From contig JALNWA010000005.1 in assembly GCA_023231115.1 (NCBI GenBank), positions 1 through 64,000 of the forward strand: a stretch of DNA of 64,000 nt, written 5' to 3'. A program made the translations under genes and the position numbers. This DNA is from Candidatus Altimarinota bacterium. Its GTDB lineage: Bacteria; Patescibacteriota; Gracilibacteria; UBA1369; LOWO2-01-FULL-3. Positions 3,864 to 52,100 of the stretch are shown here, piece after piece (the stretch's first letter is position 1; every line of letters begins with the position of its first letter). The notes under the pieces are model-generated. The model saw nothing but the letters and a program-made list of their open reading frames with translations. It ran no database searches and was not told the DNA's origin.

Positions 3864-5177
3864 TTATTTAATTTTTTTCTTCATTTCTCCGCGATCTATT
3901 TTGCTTATATCAACTTTATTTTCAGAAATTTTTAATTTTATTTCGCCTCTTACAAAACTTTTTTCAGGAATATTTTCGGCAATCACAAGCCCTGCGCCGA
4001 TGAAAGTATCGCTTCCGATTTTTACACCCGGCATGAAACTGTTATTTATTCCGATTCGAATATTATCTCCGGTAATCATTCCAAGTTTATTTTCCCCTGT
4101 CGGTGTTTTTTTGTCGTCACTGTTAACTGAAATTTCGCCTTCATCAAGCCTTAAATTGCCCGTCACAGTTCCTGCGCCGAAAGATACATTATTTCCAATT
4201 ACGCTGTCTCCGATATAGTTTGAATGAGTCCAGACATCGTCCCCAAGAAAACTTCTTGCGACTTCCGTGGAAAATCCGATCACACAATTTTTTCCGATAT
4301 TGCTTTCTCTTACTAAAGCATTAGTCGCGATTATGCTGTTGTCTCCAATGTAAACCGGACCATTAACAACTGCGCCCTCTAATATTTTTACATTTTCTCC
4401 AATAATCACATCGCCTTTTATTACAGCATTTTTCGAAATCTGCGCGCTTTTCGCAATAATTTTTTTTGCATTATCAAAGAAAAATTTGAAAACTTTATTT
4501 ACATGCCAAGGGAATTTTATCGGCTGCCAGAAGCCGTCATATTTAACTGCTTTCATCTTGATTCCGTCATTAATCATGTTCGCCAAAGCCACTTCGTATA
4601 GATCATCGCTGTCACTTTTTGCCTTTTCTAAATATGAAACCAACTTTGCAAAATCTTTATGAACATGCACAACCAAATTTACCAAATTGCTCGGCTCTTT
4701 TCCCTGCTCAGGCTTTTCAATAATATTTTTTATAAATCCATTTTCTGAAATTTCCAAATATCCACCGGGAAAATATTCATGAACAACTTTTCCAAGCAAA
4801 TATCCCTCGGCATCATCTTTCTCAAATGCATTTATTACGCTTTCAAATGCGGATTTTTCAACTACATCATTACTGCTGAAAATCAAAACACTCTCACTGC
4901 CAATCTTATTTTTCGCCGCCAAAATCGCGCCACACATTCCTGCATCAAGATCTTTTTGCTCTACCACGGAAACTTCCATCCCCAAGTGTTTCCCACATAA
5001 ATTAAGTTCCTCTAAATTGTGCTTTCCTCCAACAATAACCACCTCATCAAGTCCTGCATTTTTAATTAGCTTTAATTGATGTTCAATCAAAGGCTCACCA
5101 AGAAAATTCAAAAAATTCTTGTCCGTAATTGGCTTCATCCTTTTGCTCCTGCCTGCTCCGAGAAGTAATACTTTCAT
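3864..5177 (-). CDS. GlmU-like sugar-phosphate nucleotidyltransferase with left-handed beta-helix
   Basis: 437 aa. The N-terminal nucleotidyltransferase domain (about 1-235) opens with KVLLLGAGRSKRMKPITDKN, the NTP-binding loop, and has FSSNDVV and NIIEKPEQGKEPSNLVNL for sugar-phosphate binding. The loop is three residues shorter than in classical enzymes and lacks the usual PK pair, as in a subgroup with DKNFLNFLGEPLIEH. From about residue 245 there are hexapeptide repeats (KNAVIKGDVIIGENVKILEGAVVNGPVYIGDNSIIATNAL and onward, read in pieces) forming a left-handed beta-helix, as in GlmU or archaeal bifunctional enzymes, so a second acyltransferase activity is possible. Substrate unknown. Upstream partner of the glycosyltransferase gene. 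Confidence 0.85.
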   Translation of the reverse strand: MKVLLLGAGRSKRMKPITDKNFLNFLGEPLIEHQLKLIKNAGLDEVVIVGGKHNLEELNLCGKHLGMEVSVVEQKDLDAGMCGAILAAKNKIGSESVLIFSSNDVVEKSAFESVINAFEKDDAEGYLLGKVVHEYFPGGYLEISENGFIKNIIEKPEQGKEPSNLVNLVVHVHKDFAKLVSYLEKAKSDSDDLYEVALANMINDGIKMKAVKYDGFWQPIKFPWHVNKVFKFFFDNAKKIIAKSAQISKNAVIKGDVIIGENVKILEGAVVNGPVYIGDNSIIATNALVRESNIGKNCVIGFSTEVARSFLGDDVWTHSNYIGDSVIGNNVSFGAGTVTGNLRLDEGEISVNSDDKKTPTGENKLGMITGDNIRIGINNSFMPGVKIGSDTFIGAGLVIAENIPEKSFVRGEIKLKISENKVDISKIDRGEMKKKIK

Positions 5178-5252
5178 AATTTATAAATACATGTACCGCG
5201 ATTATACAGCGAAAAGGTGAGTTTTGAAAGGTTTTAAGGCTACTTCCTTGAT

Positions 5253-5280
5253 TTGACTTTTTGTTTTTTTTTGATATATT
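5253..5280 (+). promoter_or_regulatory. Sigma70-type promoter for candidate small RNA
   Basis: TTGACT (5253-5258), 16-nt spacer, TATATT (5275-5280). No + strand coding gene follows; instead a structured segment ending in a terminator begins a few bases downstream. Predicted start near 5287. Confidence 0.6.
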
Positions 5281-5286
5281 TACCAC

Positions 5287-5374
5287 GATGTTTGGAGGGT
5301 TCGCCCTCTCACGGCTTCCAAGCCGTAACCAAGCGTCAACAAAGAACCCGCTTCAATGCGGATTTTTTGTTTTT
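5287..5374 (+). ncRNA. Candidate structured small RNA (about 88 nt)
   Basis: Between a good + strand promoter and a + strand terminator lies a short segment with three consecutive hairpins: GAGGG-TTCG-CCCTC (a UUCG tetraloop), the 14-nt palindrome ACGGCTT/AAGCCGT around CC, and the terminator hairpin CCGC/GCGG followed by a T tract. No + strand ORF of useful size fits, and the flanking genes are on the other strand. It resembles no tRNA: no acceptor stem, no TPsiC arm. The RNA is inferred from sequence only; its 3' end overlaps the end of the convergent 158-aa gene by about 2 nt. Possible roles (regulatory RNA, decoy) are speculative. Confidence 0.45.
5348..5374 (+). terminator. Rho-independent terminator of the candidate small RNA
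   Basis: CCGC (5348-5351), loop TTCAAT, GCGG (5358-5361), then ATTTTTTGTTTTT. Four-pair GC stem with a long T-rich tail. Confidence 0.6.
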
Positions 5375-5849
5375 AATCTTCCTCCGGAATCCCTTCATGC
5401 AACATTCTACTCATTGTTTCCCTGTTCATGCCCCAAAATGGAATAATACTCCAAAAAAATTTACGACCATTCTCTATTTGTTTAATGATAACTCTAACTC
5501 GATTTCTTTTTATAATTGCAATAAATTCATAATATTTTACCGGTTTAAGTACAGTATCAGTTCGACTATGCACGCGTATTCGTTCAAACTTTTTGGTTTC
5601 CAATATTCCTTGTAAAGTATGGGATAACTTCAATATTTCCGGGACAAGATGTAAAAGCTTAAATCTCATATACTGGTCCTGCTCCAAGCGAGCCTTCTTG
5701 CGTTTCTTGAACTTAAGATGTTCGAGCCCGTGTAAGCCAAAAGATACTTTCTCCTTTAAGTAAGGACAATAAACGTCACAAAGCGATCTGTAAAATATCT
5801 CCCCACTTTCTTTTACTTCTTTAAATTGTTGCTTTGTAAAATTAAGCAT
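5373..5849 (-). CDS. Unknown 158-aa protein, possible BECR-fold (RelE/EndoU-like) nuclease domain
   Basis: Not firmly recognised. The N-terminal half is basic and helical (KKRKKARLEQDQYMRFKLL). The C-terminal third, FIAIIKRNRVRVIIKQIENG then KKFFWSIIPFWG (approximate reading), follows the pattern of small beta-sheet domains found in phage-linked and CPR proteins of the barnase-EndoU-colicin-RelE group, with an Arg-rich strand and a FWS(I/V)xP turn. The ATG lies 11 nt after the stop of a truncated hicA, so it is probably transcribed from the hicB promoter and occupies the toxin's place in that operon. The toxin idea is inference; the fold match is by eye. Confidence 0.5.
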   Translation of the reverse strand: MLNFTKQQFKEVKESGEIFYRSLCDVYCPYLKEKVSFGLHGLEHLKFKKRKKARLEQDQYMRFKLLHLVPEILKLSHTLQGILETKKFERIRVHSRTDTVLKPVKYYEFIAIIKRNRVRVIIKQIENGRKFFWSIIPFWGMNRETMSRMLHEGIPEED

Positions 5850-5860
5850 GACAAAAATTA

Positions 5861-5962
5861 TTAGTTAAAAATCGCATGACTTCCATTTTGACGCACAAAC
5901 AAAAAACCATTTTCATTCAAAAGTTTTATTAATTTTCTTGGAGTATAGTTATACTTTGACAT
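5861..5962 (-). pseudogene. hicA: Truncated hicA toxin remnant (33 codons)
   Basis: Starting at ATG 5962, inside the end of hicB, the frame reads MSKYNYTPRKLIKLLNENGF and continues LFVRQNGSHAIFN before TAA. This is the N-terminal half of HicA: the helix followed by the G-F-x-x-x-R-Q-x-G-S-H motif with the catalytic histidine. The rest (the strand with PVHxxxELxxGTLxxIL and the C-terminal helix, normally about 60-80 aa in all) is missing. The 14-nt overlap with hicB is typical of a translationally coupled pair. Presumably inactive as an mRNA interferase. It is short and easily missed by gene callers. Confidence 0.7.
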
Positions 5963-6149
5963 GTTGTTTTCTCTTCATAAGTGGACTGATGGTTTGTGAT
6001 TCCACTTCATCCTCTATGTAGAGAGAAACAGCGTTCTTGAGGTTTTTCATGGCCTCTGCCTTTGTGTCCCCAAACGTATGACAACCATTAAGCTCCTTAC
6101 AATAAGCATGAAATTTCTTGCCGTCTTTTTCGATCTTAAAGGTTAACAT
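5949..6149 (-). CDS. hicB: HicB-family antitoxin
   Basis: 66-aa HicB-like antitoxin: the partial RNase-H-like fold MLTFKIEKDGKKFHAYCKEL, then the conserved GCHTFGDTKAEAMKNLKNAV and LYIEDE. In an intact system it would neutralise HicA and repress its own operon, but no C-terminal DNA-binding domain is visible. I chose the start at 6149 rather than the in-frame codon at 6221, because a TATAAT box lies at 6175-6180 (- strand), giving transcription start near 6168 and leaving the upstream part untranscribed. Its partner hicA is truncated, so this may be an orphan antitoxin, or one serving the downstream 158-aa protein or the intact hicA at 59336. Confidence 0.8.
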   Translation of the reverse strand: MLTFKIEKDGKKFHAYCKELNGCHTFGDTKAEAMKNLKNAVSLYIEDEVESQTISPLMKRKQHVKV

Positions 6150-6353
6150 AGATATTTGAGATATTATCGTTTGCATTATAACATAGAGATTTATGGAATT
6201 AAACTGTCCTGCTTGTAACACATCGACATTAAATTTTTATTAAAAAAAGTTAAAATCTTTACTGGAAAGAAATAATTTGTAAATTTTGACAACAAGAAAT
6301 ACGACACGGAAAAAGATGATAAGACCTCGCTCGGCGAAATTTTGGACTATTCA

Positions 6354-6800
6354 TTAACGCGTAGTCCCTTCTTCATTAAAACTCTTTAAGGTTTTCGTAA
6401 AAGCCTCAAGTTCTTCGCTACGAAGCCTTGTGATTCTACTATCCGTATCAATTTCCCTAGATTGTAACTCAAATCTTTTAGCCAATAACTTTTGTCCCCA
6501 AGCAGGATACCCACGCATATTTTCATCAAGCATAGCACCGGGATCACCACAAAGTTCTCTAGTAAATGCTCCTGCCTCTCTAGCTTTATTATATGCTGAA
6601 TTAATAGACTCTCTTGTCGTTAATAAACCATAATCAATCTCTCCATTCAAATCGTCCAAAACTGTCTCATTCCTTTCAAGAGCAAATTCGCAACTGGCAA
6701 AATTCACGTCTGCTCCACCACAACCAGCCATAGCAGTCATAGCAAGCCCCATTATGGACATTTTACCAGATAATCCTTTTGGTGTTTCTCCTTTCGCCAT
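6354..6800 (-). CDS. Putative small lipoprotein, function unknown
   Basis: 148 aa starting MAKGETPKGLSGK, then a hydrophobic stretch MSIMGLAMTAMAGCGG with a lipobox-like A-M-A-G-C, so probably a signal-peptidase II substrate anchored outside the membrane. The mature part is polar and helical with two further cysteines (FASCEFALERNE, ELCGDPG), no known domain. The start at 6800 is fixed by a strong promoter at 6835-6862 whose transcription start would be about 6828; an in-frame ATG at 6830 would be upstream of it. Stands alone between hicB and purP, each with own spacing. About 150 nt downstream to hicB hold no further gene that I can see. Confidence 0.55.
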   Translation of the reverse strand: MAKGETPKGLSGKMSIMGLAMTAMAGCGGADVNFASCEFALERNETVLDDLNGEIDYGLLTTRESINSAYNKAREAGAFTRELCGDPGAMLDENMRGYPAWGQKLLAKRFELQSREIDTDSRITRLRSEELEAFTKTLKSFNEEGTTR

Positions 6801-6834
6801 ATAAATAGTGTTAACATTATCTTTAAGCAATCAG

Positions 6835-6862
6835 ATTATACTGGTAATTAAAAATATGTCAA
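6835..6862 (-). promoter_or_regulatory. Sigma70-type promoter of the lipoprotein gene
   Basis: On the - strand: TTGACA (6857-6862), 16-nt spacer, TATAAT (6835-6840). Near-consensus. It decides the start codon of the lipoprotein gene. Confidence 0.75.
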
Positions 6863-6875
6863 GCTAAACACATTC

Positions 6876-8066
6876 CTACGTCAAAATCTCTTTAAGCTTC
6901 CCTTGTTTTACAGCCTCTTTCACCTCCATTCCGATTCTTTCTCCGAAACTTACACTCTCGCCGTAAAGATAGGTTGTACAAGGCGTAAATCTCGTTCCAG
7001 GTGATCCGGGAATTCTCATTGAAACATCAAAAACTACAAATTCTTCTTTTCCTTCATACGCAGCGATGGCTCCTTGTAGAGCAAAAGCACCGATTATTCC
7101 GGGAGCGACTTCTTTCTTCAAAGTTGCCACAAATTTTTCACCTGCCTCGAAAGCTTTTTCGAGAATTGATTCTTTTGTAGTACAAGCCACATGTCCGGTT
7201 TCAATCATTGATGGAGTATATCCAGCTTCCAAAAGTTCCATCTGAGTTTTTGCATTTAATCTCAAAAATCCATCCAAAGAAGTCTGTCTTCGTAAATCAG
7301 TTCCCATTATTTCGAGCTCATCATTAAGCGGAGAATAGAAGAAATTGAAATTTATTTGTGCGCCGATGATGAATTCTTCTATAACGGAATTATCCAAATC
7401 TTTCTTATTTATTTTTCCTTCCTTAACAAATCTTTCACTATCAGAAAAATAATCAGCTGTGTTTGTAACAACAAAAAAAGCTCTTTCATATCCCCTTATC
7501 GCTTCATTCACTTTTACAATTAATGGTCCTCCTTTTTCAGTGATGAAGTGTTTATCCAACAATTTTTTAGTCTCTTCTTTATCCAATTTTTGTCCACCTT
7601 CTCTTATAATTTTCGGCATTCTTATTCCGGCTTTTTCAAGAAGATAATATTGGTTTTTCGGCTGATCCCTCTCCTCAAGTTTTACGCCTTCCCTAAGCCC
7701 AAAAACCGGCACTTTAAATTTATCTTCGAAGTCTTTAAAGTCTTTAAAATAAACCCAGAAATATCGATTATGAATGAAAATCGTATTCATTGCACGAAGC
7801 TTTTCTTGCACATCTTCATTGATAATATCGGAAAATTTATCTACCAAAATTATTTCATCAATACATCCTCGTCCGTCACCGCGTGTTTTATAATATTTGG
7901 AATATGTCTTGTCTCTGCCCTTTTGGCAAACAGCGACAGTTTTAAATCCATGTTTTTTTGCGCCACTGCAAACATCTAAAGCGCTATGTCCGCCAAGAAC
8001 ACCGATTGTAATATTTTTTAAATCGTAATTTTTTAAAATATCCAAAATGTCTTTTTGTCCGATCAT
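6876..8066 (-). CDS. PurP-like ATP-grasp ligase, divergent paralog
   Basis: 396-aa member of the PurP family (formate-dependent AICAR formylation in archaea). It retains the N-terminal ITIGVLGGHSALDVCSGAKK segment, the ATP-grasp core (GGPLIVKVNEAIRGYERAFF, EEFIIGAQINFNFFYSP, GTDLRRQT) and the C-terminal FDVSMRIPGSPGT. It differs from canonical PurP where PHGSF is replaced by HNRYFWVYF, and it is about 50 aa longer than its neighbour. Such a second, divergent PurP occurs beside the canonical one in some archaea; its exact reaction is not established to my knowledge. It lies 18 nt downstream of the canonical purP in one operon, which suggests a shared pathway or hetero-oligomer. Confidence 0.82.
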   Translation of the reverse strand: MIGQKDILDILKNYDLKNITIGVLGGHSALDVCSGAKKHGFKTVAVCQKGRDKTYSKYYKTRGDGRGCIDEIILVDKFSDIINEDVQEKLRAMNTIFIHNRYFWVYFKDFKDFEDKFKVPVFGLREGVKLEERDQPKNQYYLLEKAGIRMPKIIREGGQKLDKEETKKLLDKHFITEKGGPLIVKVNEAIRGYERAFFVVTNTADYFSDSERFVKEGKINKKDLDNSVIEEFIIGAQINFNFFYSPLNDELEIMGTDLRRQTSLDGFLRLNAKTQMELLEAGYTPSMIETGHVACTTKESILEKAFEAGEKFVATLKKEVAPGIIGAFALQGAIAAYEGKEEFVVFDVSMRIPGSPGTRFTPCTTYLYGESVSFGERIGMEVKEAVKQGKLKEILT

Positions 8067-8084
8067 TACTATAAAAGTTAAATA

Positions 8085-9110
8085 TTATCCAAGAACAGCT
8101 GAAAGCTTATCTTGTTCGATTGCCATTTTAATATCTCTTGCCAGTCTGCGTCCAGTGCTCATTGGTTCATTGTATTTTAGCCATGTATAAGGAGATCCGT
8201 TTATGTACGGATTTGTACCGGCTACAATTCTTGCTGAAATTTCAAAAACTGAATAATTAAGTTCAGGATCTATAACACCTTCAAGGCAGAAAGGACCAAA
8301 AAGCCCTCCATCAACTATCTTTTTCGAAGCATCTACAACGCGTTGTCCCATTTCAAAAATCTCAGGCAAAAGCGATTCTCTGATAACCAAAGGTACATTT
8401 CCTGTAATTGTATAAGTCGTGCGAATTCCTACTTCGACCTGATCTTTCGCGGCAATTCGTCCGACAGAATCGGCATTTGATTCATATCGTTTATCAAATC
8501 CCATTACTTCAAGTTCGCCTGTAAGTCTGCTATAAAAATAGTGTGTATATACGGGAACTCCGACGATATATTCTTGAATGGCATATTTATCCATTCCATC
8601 CACACCCTTATATTCCGCATATCTTTCATGAAATTCTTTAGGGGAATTAGCCAAAAAATACCCTTTTCCTCCGTGTGCTCCGTGAAATTTTACAATCACA
8701 GGTCTATCTATTTCTTCAGGAGTTTCGAAAATTTTTGGAATTCTAATATTCGCATTTAGAAGCCATTGTCTCTCTTTTGTTCTGTCAGATTCCCAATCCA
8801 AAATCGCTTTTGTTCCGTAATGCATTGCCTTTATATCCATCACCTTTTCAGGGCCTATATAAGCCACAAAAGAACCATGTGGAATAACAATCGCATTCTG
8901 TTTTATAAGTTCAGGTTCAATTTTGAAATAATCCTTAAATGAATCTACAGTAATAATCTGATCCGCAACCCCATAAGACAAATAAGGCCTTTCTTTGCCT
9001 TTTTCGCAAATACAGATTGTCTCAAATCCTTCATCCTTTGCCCCTTTCAGGATCTGAAGCGCCGTATGGCTTCCTAGTGTTGCAATTTTATAATCTTTAA
9101 TATTTCCCAT
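8085..9110 (-). CDS. purP: Formate-dependent AICAR ligase (FAICAR synthetase) PurP
   Basis: 341 aa, close by eye to archaeal PurP over its whole length: IATLGSHTALQILKGAKDEG, VIPHGSFVAYIGPEKV, WESDRTKERQWLLNANIRIP, VIVKFHGAHGGKGYF (ATP-grasp glycine-rich loop), IQEYIVGVPVYTHYFYS, MGFDKRYESN, FEISARIVAGTNPY. PurP uses ATP and free formate to convert AICAR to FAICAR, replacing the folate-dependent PurH transformylase. The family is chiefly archaeal, so presence in a bacterial-looking genome suggests ancient transfer. It precedes its paralog in the same operon; purH lies 6.8 kb away on the same strand beyond an inserted island. Confidence 0.9.
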   Translation of the reverse strand: MGNIKDYKIATLGSHTALQILKGAKDEGFETICICEKGKERPYLSYGVADQIITVDSFKDYFKIEPELIKQNAIVIPHGSFVAYIGPEKVMDIKAMHYGTKAILDWESDRTKERQWLLNANIRIPKIFETPEEIDRPVIVKFHGAHGGKGYFLANSPKEFHERYAEYKGVDGMDKYAIQEYIVGVPVYTHYFYSRLTGELEVMGFDKRYESNADSVGRIAAKDQVEVGIRTTYTITGNVPLVIRESLLPEIFEMGQRVVDASKKIVDGGLFGPFCLEGVIDPELNYSVFEISARIVAGTNPYINGSPYTWLKYNEPMSTGRRLARDIKMAIEQDKLSAVLG

Positions 9111-9214
9111 ATACTAAAAAATTTAGGTCTTTTGGCCATCGTACAAGAAACTTGAGCATTTGTCCACAGAAAAACTTTACTTTATCCAAGAATTTGCTAA
9201 AATAAGTACAGAAT

Positions 9215-9285: not shown

Positions 9286-10119
9286 TCAAAGCGGACTTTT
9301 AATATTTTGAATACTCGACACAGAAACCTGAGTATATCTCTGCGTAGTGCGGATATTTTGATGTCCCAAAAGAGTTTGGATGTAGCGGATATCCGTGCCA
9401 TTTTCCAGCAGATGTGTGGCAAAACTATGGCGAAGACTATGAAAAGTCGCGTCACAAAAAATCCCAGCCTTAGAAAGTGCATTGCTAAAGATTTTTTGTG
9501 CAGTCCGAGTAGTAAGTCGTCCGCCTCGTTCACTTTCAAAAAGAAAATCATTTTTATCTTTTCTTATGACAAAATTACTTAAATCAAAAATCAACTTTTC
9601 CGGTAAAATGGTAATCCTGTCTTTATTGCCTTTCGCCTGTCTAACATAGAGAATTTTTTCAGTAAAATTCAAATCTTTAACTTTGATTTTTACAACTTCA
9701 CTAACTCGAAGACCAGCTCCATAAGCCAAAGAAATCATAAGTCGGTGTTTTAAGTTTGTTATGGAATCAATAACTTTCAAAATGTCATTTTTCGCTAAAA
9801 CAACAGGAAGTTTCAGGGGTCGACGTGCAAATTTTATATCAATTTTGCAAAAGCATTTCATAACATCTCTATAAAAAAACTTAATGGCATTTAGATAAAG
9901 ATTCACAGTCTCAGGTGCATAATTTTTCAAATGTTTTTGTTCCAAAAAATCTTTCACGATTTCCGCATCCAAAGACGAAACATCTCCACCAATAAAATTG
10001 AAAAACTCCCTCAAACAAGCCAAATAAGCCTTCTTAGTCTTTGGACTGTAATTCCTGATAATAATTTCTCGTTCTGTCTGATTTAAGTGAAAAGAATAAT
10101 CCATATATCCCTTATACAC
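9286..10119 (-). CDS. Tyrosine recombinase (XerC/D- or IntI-like integrase)
   Basis: 277 aa. SAM-like core-binding domain (about 15-95: NYSPKTKKAYLACLREFFNF) and catalytic domain with the full set of residues: Arg in GAGLRVSEVV, Lys in KGNKDRITILP, H-x-x-R in FHSLRHSFATHLLENG, His in LLGHQNIRTTQRY and the nucleophile Tyr in RYTQVS. The tail ends IKSPL, as in many IntI-like enzymes, but the extra segment (IntI patch) before HSLRH that defines classical integron integrases is absent: DFLFESERGGRLTTRTAQKI runs straight on. Oriented away from a + strand array of small genes separated by attC-like palindromes, the geometry of an integron. An alternative start is ATG 10104. Whether it acts on those sites is inference. 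Confidence 0.9.
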   Translation of the reverse strand: MYKGYMDYSFHLNQTEREIIIRNYSPKTKKAYLACLREFFNFIGGDVSSLDAEIVKDFLEQKHLKNYAPETVNLYLNAIKFFYRDVMKCFCKIDIKFARRPLKLPVVLAKNDILKVIDSITNLKHRLMISLAYGAGLRVSEVVKIKVKDLNFTEKILYVRQAKGNKDRITILPEKLIFDLSNFVIRKDKNDFLFESERGGRLTTRTAQKIFSNALSKAGIFCDATFHSLRHSFATHLLENGTDIRYIQTLLGHQNIRTTQRYTQVSVSSIQNIKSPL

Positions 10120-10197
10120 TCCCGACTTAAAATATTCTTAAAATTTTCATAAAATCTCAAAACTAATGACACCTCCCCAGTGTTCGGATATACTACC

Positions 10198-10244
10198 TTC
10201 AACAGTTCCTATACGAAAACACTTCGTATAGAAACAAGTTAGCT
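10198..10244. repeat. Candidate primary recombination site (attI/attC-like), short palindrome
   Basis: CTTCAAC at 10198-10203 region, then CTATACGAA (10209-10217) and its exact complement TTCGTATAG (10223-10231) around AACAC, ending GTTAGCT (10238-10244). The end box followed by GAAAT matches the ends of the three longer palindromes downstream (GTTAnnTGAAAT). It lies between the integrase start and the first cassette, where an attI would sit. Confidence 0.5.
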
Positions 10245-10296
10245 GAAATAAATAAATTCTTTTCGGCTATGGCCGAAAAATTATTCAGACAAATTT
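10238..10296. repeat. Left arm of inverted repeats flanking the exporter cassette
   Basis: Two blocks are inversely repeated after the gene: 10238-10259 (22 nt, 20 matching 10945-10966) and 10280-10296 (17 nt, all matching 10912-10928). Between the blocks lies a perfect hairpin, TTTTCGGC/GCCGAAAA around TATG, which differs from the corresponding segment on the right. The arms bracket the LysE-like gene, so the whole cassette can fold back on itself. Confidence 0.75.
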
Positions 10297-10303
10297 AAAA
10301 AAA

Positions 10304-10912
10304 ATGTCACTATTACTTTCAAGCTTTATAATCGGTTTTAGCGCCGCCGCCTCCCCAGGTGTGATTCAAACAACAGTATTCCAAACTTCGCTTCTTGGTA
10401 AAAAACGCCAAGGAATTGTTTTGGCATCTGGTGTAGCAGCAATGAACTTCATTATTCTTGTATTGAGCTACTTTGGAATCAGTCAATTTATAAAAATTCC
10501 TTGGCTGTATTATGGTATCGGAATGGTCGGCGTCGGCTATATGTTATTCGTTGGAATAACTGGTTTGCTAAAAAGTCTTGGAAAGTTAAGTAATAGTGAC
10601 AACCCGATTGAAAAACAATCCTTTCTAAATGGAATGGTCCTCTGTGCGCTATCTCCTCTTACTTATGTTTATTTTATTGGAGTCGCAACTTCCTTTCTAA
10701 ACATAAAAGAGCATATCTTTCAAACAATCATAGCTAACTCACTATCATTGGCAATCGGATCATTTCTTTGTTTCGTTTTAGTCGCCTATCTAGGTTCAGC
10801 GATCAATAAAACCGGCAACAAAAAAATAATCGCTAGTTTCAATTTTCTGGCATCGTTAGTGATTATCATTTTTTCTGTTAGATTGTTTTTCAATCTTTTG
10901 GGATTTTTTTAA
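10304..10912 (+). CDS. LysE/RhtB-type small-molecule exporter (cassette gene 1)
   Basis: 202-aa polytopic membrane protein with about six hydrophobic segments. The N-terminal FSAAASPGVIQTTVFQTSLLGKKRQG corresponds to the P-G-P/N and G-x-R-x-G motifs of the LysE/RhtB translocator family, and the second half repeats the pattern (FLNGMVLCALSPLTYVYFIG). These proteins export amino acids or other small solutes; the substrate here is unknown. The ATG follows an A-rich leader with no clear Shine-Dalgarno. The gene fills the segment between the short palindrome at 10198 and the attC-like site at 10960, and its borders are inverted repeats, so it looks like a mobile cassette. Confidence 0.7.
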   Translation: MSLLLSSFIIGFSAAASPGVIQTTVFQTSLLGKKRQGIVLASGVAAMNFIILVLSYFGISQFIKIPWLYYGIGMVGVGYMLFVGITGLLKSLGKLSNSDNPIEKQSFLNGMVLCALSPLTYVYFIGVATSFLNIKEHIFQTIIANSLSLAIGSFLCFVLVAYLGSAINKTGNKKIIASFNFLASLVIIIFSVRLFFNLLGFF

Positions 10913-10966
10913 AATTTGTCTGAATAATATTCGCTTCGCTCATTGAATTTATTTACATCAGCTAAC
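10912..10966. repeat. Right arm of inverted repeats flanking the exporter cassette
   Basis: 10912-10928 is the exact complement of 10280-10296, and 10945-10966 complements 10238-10259 at 20 of 22 positions. It ends in the AGCTAAC box that begins the attC-like palindrome. The 16 nt between the blocks (GCGAAGCGAAT when read on the - strand) differ from the left arm hairpin. Confidence 0.75.
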
Positions 10967-11085
10967 AGCGTGTATGTGGCTACGGCTTGCTCCGTGCCTC
11001 CGCAAGCCTCCGCCCATATTTGCCACTGGTAAGCCTTCGGCATATTATACCAGTGGCAAACATCGCATACACGCGAACGTTATAT
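10960..11085. repeat. attC-like recombination site 1
   Basis: 126-nt imperfect palindrome. Outer boxes AGCTAAC (10960-10966) and GTTATAT (11079-11085) fit the RYYYAAC/GTTRRRY type; inner boxes GCGTGTATG (10968-10976) and CATACACGC (11066-11074) pair perfectly. The core stem TTTGCCACTGGTA (11019-11031) / TACCAGTGGCAAA (11048-11060) is a perfect 13 bp with CCTTCGG in the loop. A side hairpin GGCTTGC/GCAAGCC lies in the left half. Architecture (two pairs of simple sites, asymmetric spacing, variable middle) matches integron attC sites. Confidence 0.72.
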
Positions 11086-11106
11086 GAAATTTAAAAAATT
11101 ATTTCT

Positions 11107-11622
11107 ATGAAACACCCAGAAGACCCAATATCTCAAGACACTACGCCAGATGAGTCGCCTCGCGAAATAGAGGATTCGGAATTAACAATCTCGTTTCATT
11201 ATATGCGCGTTGATGATAATATAAAATTTAGCATTGAGGGGACAATAGACAAAAAATGTGATGTCACAATCATGGGAAATATTATTTTCTCCTCTCTGAA
11301 CACAGCAATAATAAATCATATTTTCGTAGAAGATATAATGCGCAAGAGAGGCTTAGGAAAAAAATTACTTACTAGACTGGAAGAGGAATTAAAAAAACAA
11401 GGTATTCAAACTATATATGCTTGTTTTACAAATCCAAAGACAGTAGATTTTTTCCTACATAGCCAATACAAGATAACTACCCCCGAATTTGAATCCTCGC
11501 AAAGGACGCGAGCAGATTTAACAAGGGTTTGGGATAAAAGAGTAAAAAGTGAAGAGGATTTTAGGAAATTAATGGCCGATCCAGAAGAACATTTTGGTGT
11601 AATCATTTTAGTAAAAAAATAA
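11107..11622 (+). CDS. GNAT-family N-acetyltransferase (cassette gene 2)
   Basis: 171 aa. The acetyl-CoA binding motif A is clear around residues 75-95: IFVEDIMRKRGLGKKLLTRL (R-x-x-G-x-G/A form), followed by the helix EEELKKQGIQTIYACFTNP and the motif B region with FFLHSQY. The N-terminal 30 residues are acidic and probably disordered. Substrate unknown; GNAT genes are common integron cassettes, acting on antibiotics, amino acids or peptides. The ORF starts 22 nt after one attC-like site and ends 14 nt before the next. The leader 11079-11104 and the tail 11617-11642 are inverted repeats of one another (22 of 26 positions). Confidence 0.82.
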   Translation: MKHPEDPISQDTTPDESPREIEDSELTISFHYMRVDDNIKFSIEGTIDKKCDVTIMGNIIFSSLNTAIINHIFVEDIMRKRGLGKKLLTRLEEELKKQGIQTIYACFTNPKTVDFFLHSQYKITTPEFESSQRTRADLTRVWDKRVKSEEDFRKLMADPEEHFGVIILVKK

Positions 11623-11635
11623 TTTTTCAAACTTC

Positions 11636-11761
11636 AAGTAACACAGAATATGCGGTTTCGTTCAGTCGCTACGCTCCTTCACTGCACCCATATTTGCCAG
11701 CGGTTGCCCTTCGGGCATATTATACCGTCAGCAAACATCGCTTATGCCAGAAACATTGTCG
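11636..11761. repeat. attC-like recombination site 2
   Basis: 126 nt, same length as site 1. Outer AAGTAAC (11636-11642) and ATTGTCG (11755-11761), the latter degenerate, but followed by GAAAT as in the other sites. Inner arms GAATATGCG and CGCTTATGC pair with two mismatches. Core: TTTGC...CGGT pairs with ACCG...GCAAA around GCCCTTCGGGC, with a 3-nt mismatch bubble. The shared words CCCATATTTGCC, CATATTATACC and GCAAACATCGC show common descent with site 1. Confidence 0.65.
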
Positions 11762-11812
11762 GAAATCGCAAAAAATATTAATATCTAAATACTTACTATT
11801 TAATACCCATAT

Positions 11813-12022
11813 ATGGAAAATACTGAAACAACTAAATCTACCATCGAGGTGTATGAAATGAAACAAGATACCACTCTAAAAGTTGCCCCCAAGGAAGAAA
11901 AACCAAAGCAGGAGGCAGCCACACCTCCGCCAAAACCTGATGACCCCGATGAAATAGCTGTGGCCGGATACGAAACTATCAATTACTTGATACAACGAGG
12001 ACTTTTAGAAAAAAGACTATAA
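11813..12022 (+). CDS. Unknown 69-aa protein (cassette gene 3)
   Basis: Small acidic/proline-rich protein: a low-complexity first two thirds (TLKVAPKEEKPKQE, TPPPKPDDPDE) and a short C-terminal helix ETINYLIQRGLLEKRL. No recognised domain and no membrane segment. It is the only ORF between attC-like sites 2 and 3, on the same strand as the other cassette genes. Small unknown ORFs are typical of integron cassettes. Low complexity makes it uncertain that it is translated, but ATG-to-stop coherence and position support it. Confidence 0.5.
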   Translation: MENTETTKSTIEVYEMKQDTTLKVAPKEEKPKQEAATPPPKPDDPDEIAVAGYETINYLIQRGLLEKRL

Positions 12023-12027
12023 CGGCC

Positions 12028-12158
12028 AAATAACAGCGGACAACAAAGGCTAAACGGTTCGCTTTTTTGAAGAAGCGCTCATCCATATTTTGCCCTGTTA
12101 AAGCACTCCGTGCTATATTGTAACAGGCCAAAACATCGTTTAGCCCGGACCGTTATCT
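12028..12158. repeat. attC-like recombination site 3
   Basis: 131 nt. Outer AAATAAC (12028-12034) and GTTATCT (12152-12158), followed by GAAAT. Inner boxes GGCTAAACG (12048-12056) and CGTTTAGCC (12137-12145) pair perfectly. Core TTTTGCCCTGTTA (12088-12100) pairs with TAACAGGCCAAAA (12121-12133) with one mismatch; AGCAC/GTGCT forms the apical hairpin. The left inner arm is separated from its outer box by extra bases, the asymmetry expected of attC. Confidence 0.72.
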
Positions 12159-12185
12159 GAAATATTTTTCCCCTCAAATTGCCTC

Positions 12186-12623
12186 ATGAAAAATACTACG
12201 CCATTAACCCTCTATCCAAGTAAAACAAAGATGTTAGTACTTTTACTAATGTCCATAGTTTTTGCCGCAGCGGGAATCGGAATGATATATAGCGGCGACC
12301 ACAAGGGATGGTTTGTGTTTATATTTTTTGGTCTTGGAATTGTGGTTTTTACAATAAATTTGTTCTCAAATTCTTCTTATTTGCGCATCACAAATCAAGG
12401 ATTGGAAATACGCTCACTGTATAAAAGCAGTTTTATTAAGTGGGACGAAGTTGAACAATTTGGAACTGGGCGTATCGGATTGAGAAAAATCGTGACACTA
12501 CATCTTAATCCAAATCATACAAAATTTAAAACAGGAGCATTGCCAGATACATATGGGAAATCAGCAGAAGAGTTGGCAGAATTGCTTAATGGACGGAAAG
12601 AAAAATATGATAAACACACATAA
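12186..12623 (+). CDS. STM3941-like membrane protein with PH-like domain (cassette gene 4)
   Basis: 145 aa. Two closely spaced hydrophobic segments (about 16-33 and 42-60: LVLLLMSIVFAAAGIGMIY, WFVFIFFGLGIVVFTINLF) precede a soluble domain with ITNQGLEIRSLYKSSFIKWDEV and the C-terminal LPDTYGKSAEELAELLN, typical of the STM3941 group of small membrane proteins of unknown function. The ATG is 28 nt after attC-like site 3, so it is the fourth cassette-like gene. No attC-like site follows; 13 nt after its stop the sequence switches to a fragment of another gene, so the 3' end of this cassette has probably been lost by recombination. Confidence 0.68.
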   Translation: MKNTTPLTLYPSKTKMLVLLLMSIVFAAAGIGMIYSGDHKGWFVFIFFGLGIVVFTINLFSNSSYLRITNQGLEIRSLYKSSFIKWDEVEQFGTGRIGLRKIVTLHLNPNHTKFKTGALPDTYGKSAEELAELLNGRKEKYDKHT

Positions 12624-15585: not shown

Positions 15586-15903
15586 ATGACAACAGAACCA
15601 AAAGAACCGGAATTATCTCCCCTAATAGACCTTCAAACAACCAGAATTCCGAGGGAGTGTTTTAAGTCTGAATGCGAGGGTTGTCCGGCAAATGATGGAG
15701 TGTTTTTTGATCTTGATACTAAAAGACATTCACTCTACTGTGCAGTTCAGGCGGCATTATTGACGGGGGAGCCAAGAAAGGCTAGCATTCTAAGTCTTCA
15801 GCTTAATGCCGGAGCAAATCCTCCAAAATGCCAACCGCTCGAAAGCGCGACAAAAATCAAACAATACTTGGATTATCTTGCACCTGACGATATGGCAATT
15901 TAG
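15586..15903 (+). CDS. Unknown 105-aa protein with Cys cluster
   Basis: Not recognised. Residues 23-32 contain C-x4-C-x2-C (ECFKSECEGCPAND), with two further Cys (LYCAVQ, PPKCQP), which could bind zinc or an iron-sulfur cluster. The rest is soluble with no membrane segment. It has its own promoter and ends 4 nt inside the convergent purH stop. Last gene of the accessory island on this side. Confidence 0.6.
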   Translation: MTTEPKEPELSPLIDLQTTRIPRECFKSECEGCPANDGVFFDLDTKRHSLYCAVQAALLTGEPRKASILSLQLNAGANPPKCQPLESATKIKQYLDYLAPDDMAI

Positions 15904-17438
15904 TGCTTAAAATACCTTCTTCCTGAAAACACCATCGCCAAGCCAAGTTCGTCAGCTTTTTTGATGACTTCTTCGTCGCTCACAGAGCCTCCCGGTTGAA
16001 TGATAGCCGAAATTCCGAGGTCATGCGCCATCTCTACGCTATCAGTGAAAGGAAAGAACGCATCTGAAGACATTACAGAGCCTTTTACGCGGTCGCCACC
16101 CTTGAAACCCGCTATCTTTATGCTATCGACTCGCGACATCTGCCCAGCCCCAATTCCAGTGACTACAGCACCCTTCGAAAAGACAATTGCGTTGGATCTC
16201 ACGTGCTTCACGACTTTTGTAGCAAAAAGCATCGATTTTAGCTCCTCATCGGTAGGTTTTGCCTTTGTTACGACCTTCAAATCGTCCAAAGTAAGGTCAT
16301 AAGTATCTTTTGTTTGTATCAAAATTCCGCCTGCGACTTTCTTGATATCTGTCTGAAATAAGTCCTTTTTAAGCTCTCCAGTCTCAAGAATTCGTAGATT
16401 TTTCCTTGTCATAAGCCTTTTTAGTGCGGCAGGGGAATATGAAGGCGCAATAATCAATTCCACGAACATATTTTCCGCTTTAATATGATCCAAAACAGCT
16501 TCGTTTACTTCTCTGTTTAATGCGATAATACAGCCAAAAGCGGACAATGAATCCACCTTGTAAGCCTGAATAAACGCATCTTCGATAGTGTTTGAGCAAG
16601 CCACTCCACAAGGATTATTGTGCTTAACAAAGACAACAGTTGGTTCTTTGAATTCCTTTACAAGCTCAAGTGCGCTATTTGCATCCACGATATTGTTGAA
16701 AGAAAGCTCTTTTCCGTGCAAAACCTTCGAATTTGTAACATTTGCATCATGATTCTCGGGATTTTTGAAAAATGCGGCTTTCTGCTGAGGATTTTCCCCA
16801 TATCTCAAGCTACAAACCTTTTCATAATGAAGATTGAGCAACTCGCTCTCACCAAGAATTTCTCTAAAATAATTATCAATTGCCTCATCATATTTATACG
16901 TAAAAGTGAAGGCCTTTCTCGCAAGTTTTTTGCGTGTTTCTAGGCTTGTTTCGCCATTCTCCTTAATTTCCCCCAATACTGCCTCATAATCGCTCGGATC
17001 AGTCAAAACAGTCACAAATTTGAAATTTTTTGCCGCGCTTCTAACCATGCTTGGCCCGCCAATATCTATGTTTTCAATTGCTTCTTCCTCAGTCACATCA
17101 GGTTTCGCAATAGTCGCCTTGAATGGATAAAGATTGATTACGACAAGGTCAATAAATTTTATTCCGTGCTCTTTTGCCGCAGAAACATGCTCTGCATTAT
17201 CTCTAACTGCCAAAATTCCTCCATGAACAAGAGGATGAAGAGTTTTCACTCTACCTCCCATCATCTCCGGAAATCCTGTGTAGTCGGATACGTCTTTTAC
17301 GCTTATCTTAGCCTCTTTTAAGGCCTTCGCAGTTCCTCCCGTTGAAAGAATTTCCACTCCATTCTTCTCAAGCTCTCGCGCAAATTCAACAATCCCAGTC
17401 TTGTCTGAGACGCTAATTAAAGCTGTTTTTAAAGCCAT
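15900..17438 (-). CDS. purH: Bifunctional AICAR transformylase / IMP cyclohydrolase PurH
   Basis: 512 aa, full length. The MGS-like IMP cyclohydrolase domain is residues 1 to about 195 (ALISVSDKTGIVEFARELEK, STGGTAKAL, GFPEMMGGRVKTLHP). The AICAR transformylase domain follows, with RYGENPQQKAAF and the catalytic KHNNPCGVA segment intact, and FSKGAVVTGIGAGQMSRVDS near the end. It catalyses the last two steps to IMP, using 10-formyl-THF for the first. As PurP is also encoded nearby, the formylation step seems doubly covered; PurH may mainly supply the cyclohydrolase. Same strand as purP, separated by the island. Confidence 0.96.
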   Translation of the reverse strand: MALKTALISVSDKTGIVEFARELEKNGVEILSTGGTAKALKEAKISVKDVSDYTGFPEMMGGRVKTLHPLVHGGILAVRDNAEHVSAAKEHGIKFIDLVVINLYPFKATIAKPDVTEEEAIENIDIGGPSMVRSAAKNFKFVTVLTDPSDYEAVLGEIKENGETSLETRKKLARKAFTFTYKYDEAIDNYFREILGESELLNLHYEKVCSLRYGENPQQKAAFFKNPENHDANVTNSKVLHGKELSFNNIVDANSALELVKEFKEPTVVFVKHNNPCGVACSNTIEDAFIQAYKVDSLSAFGCIIALNREVNEAVLDHIKAENMFVELIIAPSYSPAALKRLMTRKNLRILETGELKKDLFQTDIKKVAGGILIQTKDTYDLTLDDLKVVTKAKPTDEELKSMLFATKVVKHVRSNAIVFSKGAVVTGIGAGQMSRVDSIKIAGFKGGDRVKGSVMSSDAFFPFTDSVEMAHDLGISAIIQPGGSVSDEEVIKKADELGLAMVFSGRRYFKH

Positions 17439-46180: not shown

Positions 46181-49100
46181 TTATTTTACAACATCAATTA
46201 TATTACTCTTAGAGAAAATATAACTATCATCTTTTGTTGAGATAATAGTGAAAAATTTATCGGTCGGAAGAATCATACTACTGTTTGAAACAGTTGATTT
46301 ACATGGGCATGTGTTGCACTCTCCGGGAATTATATATATTCCTGAAAAAGATTCTTTTTGCGTGAATTCGGAAGATTTAACAGGCAATTTATCGTCATTC
46401 GGATCAAAAATATTTGTACCGTTTTTTAGCTCTGTCGCATCGTCCGTGCCTCCGCCGTCTGAATCTTTATCTTTTGAGGGGTCTTTTATTATTGATTTAT
46501 CTTCAAAACAATTATAAACATCAAGAACTCTGCCCGCGAGAACAAACAAATCTGCGCGAGTCATAGCCTTTTCAGGAGTTTTTGCTTCTTCTTCGGTAAT
46601 AATAAAATTATTTTTTATGGCTTTGCCAGCAGATACATATTTCGTAAGATTTTGAGCGGCTTGCACAAAATTTATATACCAAGGATTACCAATTTGGACT
46701 CTATCAATATTTATTATGCTTCGCATTTGTAGCGCGCTAAGAATAATTTTTGCAGTCTCAGCCAAATTGATTGTGTTCTCAGGCTTGAAAGGATGTAGGT
46801 TGTTATAAGTCTCACCGCGATAGCCATCGATAAGCGAACGCAAAGCCGATTCTTTTATGTAAGGATAAAACCAATCCAAAGGATTTTTGAATTGAATATC
46901 AGAGAAACCGCCGTTCGCTTCGTTTGGAGAATAAGCCTTATATGCCTCAGGTCTAGGCTCGATACAAAGCATCTTCAAAAGTATTTTTATAAATTGACTT
47001 CTTGTAACCAAATCTTCAGGTTTCAAATAAATACCGTTTTCCGTTTGCACTCCTTCGATAATATCTTTTTCATAAAGATCATTCGCAATTTTCTTTAAGT
47101 CGGAAGATAAATTTCCAAAATCTTCAAAAGGAGAAACATATCCATTCGCAGATTTACTTAGAGTATTTGAGTTCGAAGGCGTAGAAACAGGGACATCTTT
47201 GAATCCGACAACTTTTGCTGAAACATTTATATTAACGTGCACCTCAGCAACAACTTTAGAGTCAACATTAAGATTTATAACGAGTGGATCTTTTGTATAA
47301 TCATTTGCTTTTTTCGTTGCGGTAAGCCTGTTATTCAAGATTGTTATATTTCCGGAAGGTTCAATCGCTCCAAAAGTTATATTATTTTTTTCATCAATAA
47401 TAATCGCACCACCAGGATTAAATTTATTATTTGCAGGTAAAACTTTTACATCAATTCCGTCACCAAGATTCAAATCTTTTACATTTGTCCCAATCGAAGT
47501 TGAAGAATTTACATCGGTATTTGTATCTCCAACTACATAAATTGTCGCCTCTATGTATCCGTTTTTATCAACGATAATAAGGCTTGTAGGAGCAATCACA
47601 GATGAATTTGAAGTGTTTACTTTTACAAAATATCCATCAGCGAGTTCTCCAATATTTCCAGTTTTTGGATTTATTTTTGCAATAACTTTTCCGTTTTCAT
47701 CTTCAATCAAAATTGTGTCATCTATTGAAAAATCATTGATAACATAAGCGCCATCATTATCTGTTTTATAAGTTCCATCTTTCTCGGCGGAAGGTGTTTT
47801 TATTTTTTCAATTTTTGGAACAAGGGTCAGATCTCCGCTTATAGATCTATAAGAATAACGTTCACGCATGAGGCTGAATGGAACTCCGGACAAAGAAGGA
47901 TCAACTTTACCTGAAGCGACAGGTGTTCTTTCAAGAGGCTGATCAAGAGAAATTGCCGGAGCAAAAACATTTATAATTATTTTTTGAGATGAAGAATTCC
48001 CCGAGGCATCAACAACGTTTAATATCGCGTAATGCATTCCAACATCTCCTTCATTTTCAAAAGGGCCGATGTTAAATTTTGAATTACTCTTGTCGTTAGT
48101 AAGATTCCCATCTCCATTTTCATCAACAGTTAAATCTGCATCGCTCCATATTAATTTAGGGAACTGTGTGACTTTTTTATCACCATTCTCAAAAGGAGAC
48201 ATCTCAATATAATACTCGGAGACTTTTCCATTCGGATCAAAAGAATTTCCGGCATCAAGTACAAAACTTTTGAATATCGGAACATTGAAAACAGTTTGAG
48301 AGACGGCAGGTAAAGGAGGTTCTTTATCGGAACATAAGGGGGCTTCATACATCGGATAATAAGAAGTGAAACCAACTCCGTCTTTCAAAACATAACTCGA
48401 AACAACGCTCTTTCCTGCGGAAATAAACACATCACCTCTTTCTGTCTTAGGAGTTTCTTTGTGATTTATTTTCATATAAACATCTCCACCCATTGAGAAA
48501 ATAATATCTTTATCAGTGTCGCTATCAACATCTGTGAAAATATTATTCGTGGCTCCTGCAAGTTCTGAAGTGTAATTTAAAATACTTTCATTTTCACCAC
48601 CCGCTAAAACGTAAAATCCTTTTGGCGCGGCTGATGACGCATCTGAAGAACCTGTTACTCCTGATGCAAGATCGGTTTTTGTCGGGACTGAAGGTTCATA
48701 CGCTATAAGCCTTTCCTTAGTCTCATCACTGAAAAGAGATCCTTTTATTTCTTCGTCAGCGGTGGATATATCTATTTTTTGCAAAGTATTTTCAGCGAAT
48801 AAAATATCTTTTTCATTGTTATTCTCTGCAATGTATTTCATGAATTCATCATAATTTTTTATCTCGGAAAGAACTTCATTCGCATCAGCTATGTCGTTTG
48901 TATAAGCCAAAAGACTATTTCTTATTGCATACATATTTTCCATTTCCGGATAATCGGCCAAAGAATCTATATCCAAATCTTCTATGCTGGAAAGCTCTTT
49001 GTTTAATGTCGGATCATTTTCGTCCAAAACGGATTGTGTGGCAGTAAGATAAAATTTTTCAGGATAATCTTCATCTGTTTCCAAAGAAGAAACATATCTT

Positions 49101-52100
49101 TCAATCTCACCGCTAAAATTATTTAGTTCATTTTTCAATTGAACAAAAGCTTCGGGAAGCGAAGTTTGTTTCTTTTCGACGGCGTCTTTAACTTCATTAA
49201 CAGTTTCTTCAATAGCATCAATAGAGGTTGAAGCGGCATCACCAACAGTTTCATTAGCTTTTTCGGCTAATTTCTTTAAAAGGTTATTAATGCCTGTTTG
49301 TAGAGGAAAACCGGTGTATTCATTTATACCTTTTACGAGTTTTTTAGTTTGTTCGTTAATTTTTTCCGCTCCAATTTTTCCAATGTAATAAATAAAACTT
49401 GTATCAATTCCGAAATTTAATTTCGCATCAACTTTTATTTGATCGACATAACTATATTCTATAGAAGGCATTTGCACCGAAAACTCTTTAAGGAAAGGCA
49501 AAACAGATTGTGCTGAAGGTTGAGTCAAGGTTTCTATTTCAGTCGCAAGACTGGATTCAGGAATTGGGATAAGACCCTTTTTCAAAAGACATAAAATTTT
49601 CACAACTTTTTTAAGACTGGTAACAACATTCAAAATGACATCTGCATTTGCCAAATCAGATAGGGCGGGAATCTTTGGCGGATGAGGTAAATCAGGTAGT
49701 TTTGGGAATGACAACGTTGGTAAATCCGGCAAATTAGGCATCGCAAATTCAGGAAAATTTAAAATCCAATCAGGGATATCAAATTTTGTTTCGATGCCAA
49801 AAGCCGCTGAAATATCGAGGTTATAATCATCGGGAAGGACCTCGGGAAGGGTAATTGTCGGAAGATTTGGTAAATTTATCTTCTCAGGCATAAAGACAAA
49901 ATCAGGCCATACAATATTTACGCCGGTTTTTATTTGCGAAATATCAAAAACTATATCCGGCCATTTTGGTAAAGGAATTACAGGAGGTTCCGGAATACTT
50001 GCAAAAAGCTCCAACAAAACATTAAGTTTGCTAAACCTGTCATTTTTATTACAGTCGTTACAAGATTTTTCATAATCAATCGAAATATCCAAAATAGCAT
50101 GCCATTCTTGAAATGTTTTAATAGCATCTTCAACAGCTTTCATCCACGATTGTGCAACAATATTTTGACGTTTTATATATCCGCCCATAAACTCCATTAT
50201 CGCATCCATATAACAAATAATCTGTGTCGCATATTTTGTTTCAAGACTTCTAAGTTTCAAAACTTCGGATGGTAATTTTGCAATTTTATCGAGTTTATCC
50301 ATTAAAATTTTGATGGAACCTATATAACTGTTCAAATCTACAGTGATTTTATCGCAGAGAGTTTTTCTATAATTATTTTCATCACAGCTCCAATATTCCT
50401 TAATTCTTTCAAGCTCACTTTTCTCATACTCAACCCACAAACTGGCTTGTCTCTTCCATTTTTCAATTTCAGACTGAGTTATCGCAGGAACTTTTATTAG
50501 AATTTCTTTTGACTCAATTTGAACAAAAGGAATTGAATTTACAGCTCGCAAGAAATCATTTACGCTTTTTATTTTTTTGAAATTTTTTCCGGCCGCCGCG
50601 AATTTTCCACCGAGTTCTCCAAAATCAGGAATTATCAAATATATGTCCGGGAAATCAAGAAGTTTATTGTAAATTTCATCAGCTTCCTTATCAAGCCAGT
50701 CAGTTATTACGCTTGGAAAGCCGGGAATTCGCACATTAACTTTTGTTGCGGCGGAAATCGGCAATGATGGATCCGAATAACTATCGCCCATGGAAATAGC
50801 ATCTGTGCCAGCCGAAGCATCTCCATCCGAAATGACAGTGGAAGTGCCGATATCAGGATCTGAATTTACATCTTTAGCATTCGCAATGGCATCACTTACC
50901 TCTTGAATGAAATTTGGACATCCACCAAGTAAACTAGGAGGAATTGCAGTTGCATAACAAACACCTGTAAGCCCATTTGCTCCTGTACAAACGGCCGTAC
51001 CAAGCCCCATAGTCAAAGTAGGAGAAATATATAAGCGTAAATAAGAAGGTAAATAAGACGACTGAAAAGGCATTACATAAGGTGGATTTGCAACCAAAGA
51101 AATAGCAGGATATCCGGGAGAAGTTTCAGTTTGAGCAAAAAAAGCGTAATTGTAAGGGATAGGCAAACATCCACCGGCCTCACATTTAAAATTACTAAAA
51201 GTCTGAATAGCGTTATAGATGGAATCTCCCATGTTACCGGCAGTAGTTTTGAATGATTCCCAACTGTCGGGACAACCGTTATTATCTTTATCCGAAAAAT
51301 TTGACGTTATAACATTTTGCAAAGCTTTCTTTATAGGGTCAGATAAACCAGGAGAGTCTATTGCATTCAAAAGTTCTTTTGCAGAAGGTAAATCATTCTT
51401 TTTAAATTCTTCATCATACTCGGCAGAAAGGTCATTCTTTACGCCGCTGACAATTTTCTTTTGATAGTTAACATAACTGTCGCCAATTCCGGTTGAATAC
51501 AAATAAATCAAATCTCCATTTGGATTTACGCTTGGACGAACACGAATATCAGGATAATTATCTTTTTCATATCCGCCAAAATCATATCCAAGATCAAAAT
51601 TTATCGACGGAATTATATCAACAGTTGAAGTGTATTTTATTGTTCGTTTGCCGTTTGCCGGAACTGAAATATTTTTAATTATTTTCGATCTCAAACTCAT
51701 TCCGGACTCTTCCCATTCAAGTTTATCCTTACAATTTGAATCTACACATCTCAAACTTTCATTTGAAATTGTCATTGTTGCAGGCGTCAAATCGGAAACC
51801 ATTACATTGTTCAAATTTGAGCCGGATTTATTTTGCAAAGTTATCGTAAACTCTATCTTGTCGCCTGAAGAAACCGTATTCCCGTTTACGTCTAAAGCCG
51901 TTTTTGTTGAAGAAGTCAGTTGAGAAATTTTAGAAACCGGCTGGAATTTATATTGTCCAACGCTTACAAAATCTTCTTTAAGATTTTCCATGCCCGACAA
52001 ATGAACAAAAACATTTTCTTTCATGTCAGTCTCGGCATTTATTCCATATCCAAAATTGAAAGAATTTCCATAATTTGTTTCAATTCCTTTACAAGATTTT

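Follow-up and report, generated by a model that had tools for sequence, protein, structure and literature searches.

The question raised by this locus is whether a tyrosine recombinase gene and the palindromic sites beside it form one integron-like cassette system in a bacterium of the candidate phyla radiation (CPR). In the window, that is, the whole stretch of 64,000 nucleotides that was analysed, the integron-like locus spans positions 9286-12163, where a tyrosine recombinase diverges from an attI-like site and three attC-like sites, each accompanied by one open reading frame (ORF). The original prediction of a minus-strand recombinase diverging from four plus-strand genes was confirmed, with the recombinase at 9286-10119 and genes for a LysE exporter, a GNAT acetyltransferase, a 69-aa ORF and an STM3941 family protein. 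We consider it very probable that the locus represents an integron-type platform, chromosomal and sedentary, in a Peregrinibacteria-like CPR bacterium, working like an integron without I2, the insert that is specific to the integron integrase IntI. The assignment of the organism to the Peregrinibacteria is suggested by its relatives.

Comparison with the closest relative found, genome G113, revealed a recombinase that is 88% identical and lies in the same chromosomal slot, with flanks that match those of the window on both sides (long matches 81-87% identical). G113 has the same recombinase and attI, in common with the window through GTTAGCYGAAAT, followed by a differing array of 10 cassettes. 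The homology ends at window position 10250, twelve bases past the first base of the attI GTT. The interval between this point and the right flank measures 5.6 kb in the window and 18.4 kb in G113, with only attC sequences in common (blastn, E 1e-3). A gain or loss of cassettes exactly at the GTT had been proposed as something to look for in related strains, and the G113 array departs from the GTT onward. Window site 1 is 87.8% identical to the G113 site that closes a type III restriction-modification cassette, beside other genes. G113 also has an attC that, apart from its R boxes, is 98% identical to one of L013, a further Peregrinibacteria genome, of which the recombinase is only 51% identical to that of the window. 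Homologous sites are thus found beside different ORFs in related genomes, which contradicts the possibility that the palindromes always occur with the same flanking genes.

In integrons the 5' end of a cassette and the R'' box at its 3' end derive from one circular site. Among 28 scored units from G113, L013, L011 and the window, the match between a unit's own 5' end and its own R'' averaged 8.68 out of 9 (22 perfect; at least 8 in 27 of 28), compared to 6.79 out of 9 for R'' against R' of the same site. In a permutation test the observed sum was 243 and the best permuted sum 223, none of 100,000 permutations being as good. We therefore regard the match as the mark of cassette exchange at G|TT. 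Four of the 11 arrays scanned entered this test, with GTTRNNYGA as the 5' pattern of a unit. Sites were located with a box-grammar finder, which replaced a noisy free-energy ranking of GTTR sites; its false calls (e.g. window 390, window 758 and G113 3855) were filtered out with a score threshold of 12 ahead of the permutation. The single poor row (5/9, window) runs from site 1 to site 3 and does not represent a real cassette; it is an artefact, because the finder skipped the decayed site 2, and was kept in the count. Taken together, the comparisons show the cassettes, as far as sequence can tell, to be exchangeable units bounded at G|TT that end in conserved attC hairpins beside a recombinase and attI.

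The attC sites of several loci follow one grammar: R'' (TCRNNYAAC), 1 base, L'' of about 11 bp, inner hairpins, L', 4 bases (mostly GRAC) and GTTRNNYGAAAT. The R-L spacers were 1 nt and 4 nt in 25 of the 28 scored sites. The significance of attC matches rests on our own covariance model, R1, which had window sites 1 and 3 in its training set; site 2, outside that set, scored 71.2 bits (E 3e-14). As for attI, a search of 36 loci, some with less than 160 bp of upstream sequence, gave an exact GTTANNTGAAAT at 72-160 bp upstream of the recombinase and on the opposite strand in 8 CPR loci, and near matches in others. Many CPR contigs terminate just upstream of the recombinase, probably because repeats break the assembly.

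From the genome scan the best 80 loci (1.04 Mb) were retained, the closest of which are from CPR bacteria. R1 gave 42 matches in them, of which 41 lie upstream of the recombinase and opposite to it, 24 of these outside the training set; the 41 are distributed over 13 CPR loci and one Spirochaete locus, and the remaining match is marginal (L037, E 0.049). Additionally, we scanned two CPR classes (in the class of L013 with thresholds of E <= 1e-40 for the recombinase and E <= 1e-3 for sites). In the class of L013 (288 genomes), 86 genomes had the recombinase, 112 had sites and 69 had both (Fisher p 5e-21), so that sites occur in 69/86 genomes with the recombinase versus 43/202 without. The 285 genomes of the class of L009 gave 29, 47 and 24, respectively (p 2.5e-17), with sites in 24/29 genomes versus 23/256. 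Same-contig orientation was counted in the class of L009: all 35 sites on a recombinase contig were upstream and opposite, 33 of them within 20 kb, and all 23 multi-site contigs had a single orientation. Co-occurrence in two classes and the fixed orientation away from the recombinase support the original proposal that sites and recombinase form one system. A second attC-like pair was seen about 58 kb from the recombinase at G009:C1:176809-177808, with no recombinase match adjoining.

The attC sites show heavy compensatory change. In the alignment of 28 sites (A4) 90.7% of the cells are paired and 27 of 37 pairs have changes on both sides, with a covariation score of 0.526 versus 0.153 for shuffled and at most 0.086 for slid alignments. 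The L stem is 97.5% paired, with 9 of its 10 pairs covarying, and is bulge-free in 27 of the 28 sites; in the L009 site it has a gap of one base. In 26 of 28 sites the bottom strand had the greater stability, the mean difference being 3.6 kcal/mol (Wilcoxon p 5e-6), compared to 41 of 100 control stretches from the window. On the top strand, columns 78 and 141 form an A.C mismatch (26 sites have A, 2 have G), which becomes a T.G wobble on the bottom strand. Of the window sites, for which folding of the bottom strand had been suggested as a check, sites 1 and 3 fold far better than shuffles (z -5.4 and -3.9). Covariation and stability together point to the bottom strand as the probable working form of attC, as in integrons.

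The window recombinase scored 217.8 bits against NF040815 (cut-off 220) and 199.1 bits, in two pieces, against the integron integrase family TIGR02249, which is below the cut-off of 265; the L013 recombinase is also below it (199.3 bits). Its alignment to IntI4 (2A3V) with HMMER passes over about 43 residues. The I2 insert was missing in all 25 aligned clade members (the window and 24 others) and present in all four proteins above the TIGR02249 cut-off (L062, L066, L073 and L081), which were chosen by length first and then confirmed with TIGR02249. This alignment excluded L020, L026, L031 and L034; L026 was examined separately and likewise lacks the insert. An integron recombinase of the IntI type, as implied by the original prediction, is therefore not what the locus encodes. 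The residues R138, K163, H227, R230, H253 and Y262, which presumably have catalytic roles, were invariant in 16 of 16 sequences (alignment A2), and the frame of the window recombinase is open with all of them. The window-type recombinase forms a separate clade, apart from IntI; a tree with the CPR clade as sister to IntI was not the best one, yet was not rejected (approximately unbiased test, p 0.133). The locus has the parts of a functional integron, with attI beside a divergent recombinase, attC boxes with AAC/GTT and cassettes breaking at G|TT, and is not a strict, IntI-based integron, because the insert was looked for and is absent. Judged in this way, an I2-less integron class, functional yet outside the strict definition, appears to be widespread in CPR bacteria.

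XerA and XerC-XerD recombinases resolve chromosome dimers, and unlike them the recombinase studied here adjoins attI and attC arrays, with a separate Xer-like gene in several genomes. A second, different recombinase gene (E <= 1e-20) was present in 8 of 17 CPR genomes picked for the window-type recombinase and absent at that threshold from the other 9. Two of these second recombinases were scanned and had XerD as the best match (257 and 259 bits, under the cut-off of 329.6), and five group as their own clade. A housekeeping Xer identity was rejected on the basis of this different, Xer-like second gene and its own clade. Viral contigs gave a single distant match to the recombinase, with 20% identity. 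In L022, L024 and other genomes the recombinase gene has many in-frame TGA codons (7 and 11, respectively, in these two) and therefore seems resident in hosts reading TGA as an amino acid.

Outside the CPR, an I2-less recombinase was seen in L035 (a Nanoarchaeota archaeon of the DPANN group, genome G593, with four R1 matches, best E 2e-8) and in L027 (Spirochaetes bacterium GWE1_32_154, with attC-like sites at 1349-1482 and 2263-2404). R1 on 14 genomes gave matches in three: four in a DPANN archaeon, one in a Spirochaete and one in the genome of L037 (E 0.007). The four IntI genomes, included in these 14, gave no R1 match, which is no evidence for a rejection of classical attC by R1, since arrays may be missing from these genomes; as a classical-attC control, a generic finder gave no convincing array on the four IntI loci.

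We infer the recombination chemistry as follows. The recombinase would bind attI as a duplex and attC as a folded bottom strand, and would cut the latter at 5'-A|AC-3'. Circular cassettes would be inserted at attI, and the junction would be resolved by replication as in integrons. Polarity may be set by the 1-nt/4-nt asymmetry of the R and L boxes together with the A.C mismatch (the wobble on the bottom strand). These cues would replace the extrahelical bases read by I2 in classical attC, as these are described in the literature.

Several observations weigh against this interpretation. R1 is a model of our own, trained on 28 sites, and gives rough E-values, the Fisher tests ignore kinship, and 12 candidates per genome were scored in the class scans. 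The recombinase occurs with no attC match in 17/86 and 5/29 genomes of the two classes, and attC matches occur without recombinase in 43 and 23; fragmented metagenome-assembled genomes could explain both discordant kinds. Window site 2 folds no better than shuffles (z -0.5). The AAC/GTT outer boxes predicted for all three sites are present at sites 1 and 3, whereas site 2 has ATT at 11755-11757; because of the weak fold and this triplet, site 2 looks decayed. For the fourth unit an attC was sought downstream by covariance model and none was found, and with these two signs the window array is partly decayed. The orientation of the cargo is less uniform in L013, where of 10 cassettes five run purely with the array, one is mixed, three are opposite and one is empty. 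It is also possible that I2 was lost rather than primitively absent, because the sister relation to IntI was not rejected.

Real cassettes could also be moved by a recombinase that acts, like Xer, on double-stranded DNA only, with attC extruded or as plain duplex and no role for a single strand. The missing I2, held necessary for cassette capture in passages of PMC7790495, and the presence of XerA among the close structural relatives of the recombinase speak for this; we nevertheless consider it unlikely, since the compensatory change across the whole hairpin and the bias of stability to the bottom strand (26/28) argue for selection on one folded strand. That a canonical IntI located elsewhere acts on the sites in trans, with a dimer-resolving Xer or a bystander as the neighbouring recombinase, appears very improbable and was rejected: a true IntI with the insert does exist in one of the 288 genomes (G237) and sites are found in 112, 8 of the 17 recombinase-chosen CPR genomes hold the different second recombinase gene, and 8 CPR loci have the exact attI motif 72-160 bp upstream of the recombinase. 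The IntI of G237 (L130 1468-2451, class of L013; additional domain present, TIGR02249 461 bits) could be contamination. We give hardly any credence to transcription terminators, REP- or MITE-like repeats (repetitive extragenic palindromes, miniature inverted-repeat transposable elements) or RNA elements between genes, although the sites are intergenic, palindromic and mostly 3' of plus-strand genes. Matched cassette ends, divergence from the GTT onward and an orientation fixed to the recombinase are not expected of such elements, and terminators or MITEs were rejected for these reasons; Rfam at gathering thresholds gave no family match.

Compatible with an integron-type platform for the class as a whole is the suggestion that the window copy is a fossil, with an intact recombinase and an immobile array. 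The mutated triplet and weak fold of site 2, the fourth unit without attC and the 3 kb of other genes with duplicated fragments that follow the array make this a possibility, about which we are rather doubtful given the open recombinase with all A2-invariant residues kept and the 9/9 match of the ends of cassette 1.

The features of the window locus are listed in Table 1. The three palindromes predicted at 10960-11085, 11636-11761 and 12028-12158 are real, and their limits in the table are those of the covariance model. The palindrome at 10198-10244, proposed to be in the attI position, also proved real (fold z -5.9; 24 bits, E 0.0026). ORFs had been placed 22-60 nt after the GTT; the cassette ATGs lie close to that range, at 28-66 nt counted from the start of the GTT (or ATT). 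One 10/12 sigma-70-like match at 10166-10194 is aimed into the array; it is a consensus match only, one of 3 in total versus 0.9 expected. The gene of the right flank is one that we take to be purH. Downstream of the array, fragments that are 86-90% identical are duplicated: 12637-12697/15440-15500 (end of a DUF7670 gene) and 12773-13072/14787-15086 (HigA-like gene). They flank a HigB/HigA pair and a metallophosphatase-like gene, and this stretch is perhaps a decayed end of the array. Elsewhere in the window, 46181-57817 is a single ORF of 3878 aa.

Table 1. Features of the integron-like locus and its flanks in the window.
Feature	Position	Strand	Remarks
Left conserved flank	4859-9172		common to G113
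Tyrosine recombinase, CPR integron clade	9286..10119	-	277 aa (272 aa from ATG), no I2 insert
attI-like site	10195..10249	+	palindrome then GTTAGCTGAAAT; crossover G|TT at 10238/10239
Cassette 1 gene, LysE-type exporter	10304..10912	+	
attC 1	10958..11090	+	R'' TCAGCTAAC, R' GTTATAT; R'' equals own cassette 5' end, 9/9
Cassette 2 gene, GNAT acetyltransferase	11107..11622	+	
attC 2, decayed	11634..11766	+	weak fold; crossover triplet ATT, not GTT
Cassette 3 gene, 69-aa ORF	11813..12022	+	no family match
attC 3	12036..12163	+	R'' GGACAAC, R' GTTATCT
Fourth-unit gene, STM3941 family	12186..12623	+	no attC after
Right conserved flank	15900..17438	-	same neighbour in G113

Counting ORFs of at least 50 aa, the cargo runs with the array in 3/3 cassettes of the window, 10/10 of G113 (14 ORFs) and 6/6 of L011. 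Three G113 cassettes carry restriction-modification pairs; the cargo includes pairs of type III, of EcoRI type (together with an AriA-like ATPase) and of TdeIII type, as well as an HNH protein. Cassettes of 3-5 kb with restriction-modification pairs, including an EcoRI-type pair, were seen in L119 (5153-20000) and L120 (1-2879).

IntI integrons (class 1, Vibrio and other chromosomal ones), the anatomy of which is described in part in PMC4792948, share several features with this system: a tyrosine recombinase that diverges from the array, an attI, hairpin attC sites composed of R''/L''/L'/R' boxes, an AAC/GTT crossover, mostly one cassette orientation and a 5' end equal to the own R''. Here, in contrast, the recombinase lacks I2 and belongs to another clade in CPR hosts, and the attC sites, set against classical ones by description only, have a bulge-free L stem of about 11 bp (27/28), spacers of 1 and 4 nt (25/28) and an R box extended to GTTRNNYGAAAT. 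In passages of the papers by Escudero et al., I2 is required for the capture of cassettes and is not known from any other protein (PMC4792948, PMC7790495), and is treated as the innovation behind single-strand cassette recombination, with a chicken-and-egg paradox named (PMC4792948) and intermediates said to be lacking (PMC7790495). The same passages describe CTXphi, for which the host XerC, also I2-less, uses a folded single-stranded phage site; it differs in that a phage hijacks a host enzyme, with no dedicated recombinase, attI or cassette array (PMC4792948, PMC7790495). Archaeal integrons are likewise platforms in lineages known from metagenome-assembled genomes, and differ in that their integrases carry the IntI-specific additional domain, as stated in parts of Ghaly 2022 (PMC9668308), where the words CPR and Patescibacteria are absent from the main text. 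An aquifer defensome study, in the part available, used IntegronFinder and kept complete integrons only (PMC12259885). Among the open-licence PMC papers listed, titles and starts of abstracts describe no CPR integrons, which does not establish absence from print. Searches that need the IntI domain would be expected to miss an I2-less class.

What is new, on present sequence evidence, is a class of CPR integrons whose recombinase lacks I2. With modest confidence, we lean towards the view that CPR bacteria, with hints of DPANN archaea and a Spirochaete, carry a second integron class that lacks I2, recombines folded single-stranded attC and relies on spacer asymmetry and a wobble, that this class may be the missing intermediate from before I2 or an independent invention of cassette capture, and that it may carry complete defence systems from one CPR lineage to another. 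The question of the origin of I2 would become directly testable with natural integrons that have structured attC and no I2. The small genomes of CPR bacteria are usually discussed as reduced; the finding points to a general route of gene capture in them, with cassettes carrying restriction-modification systems.

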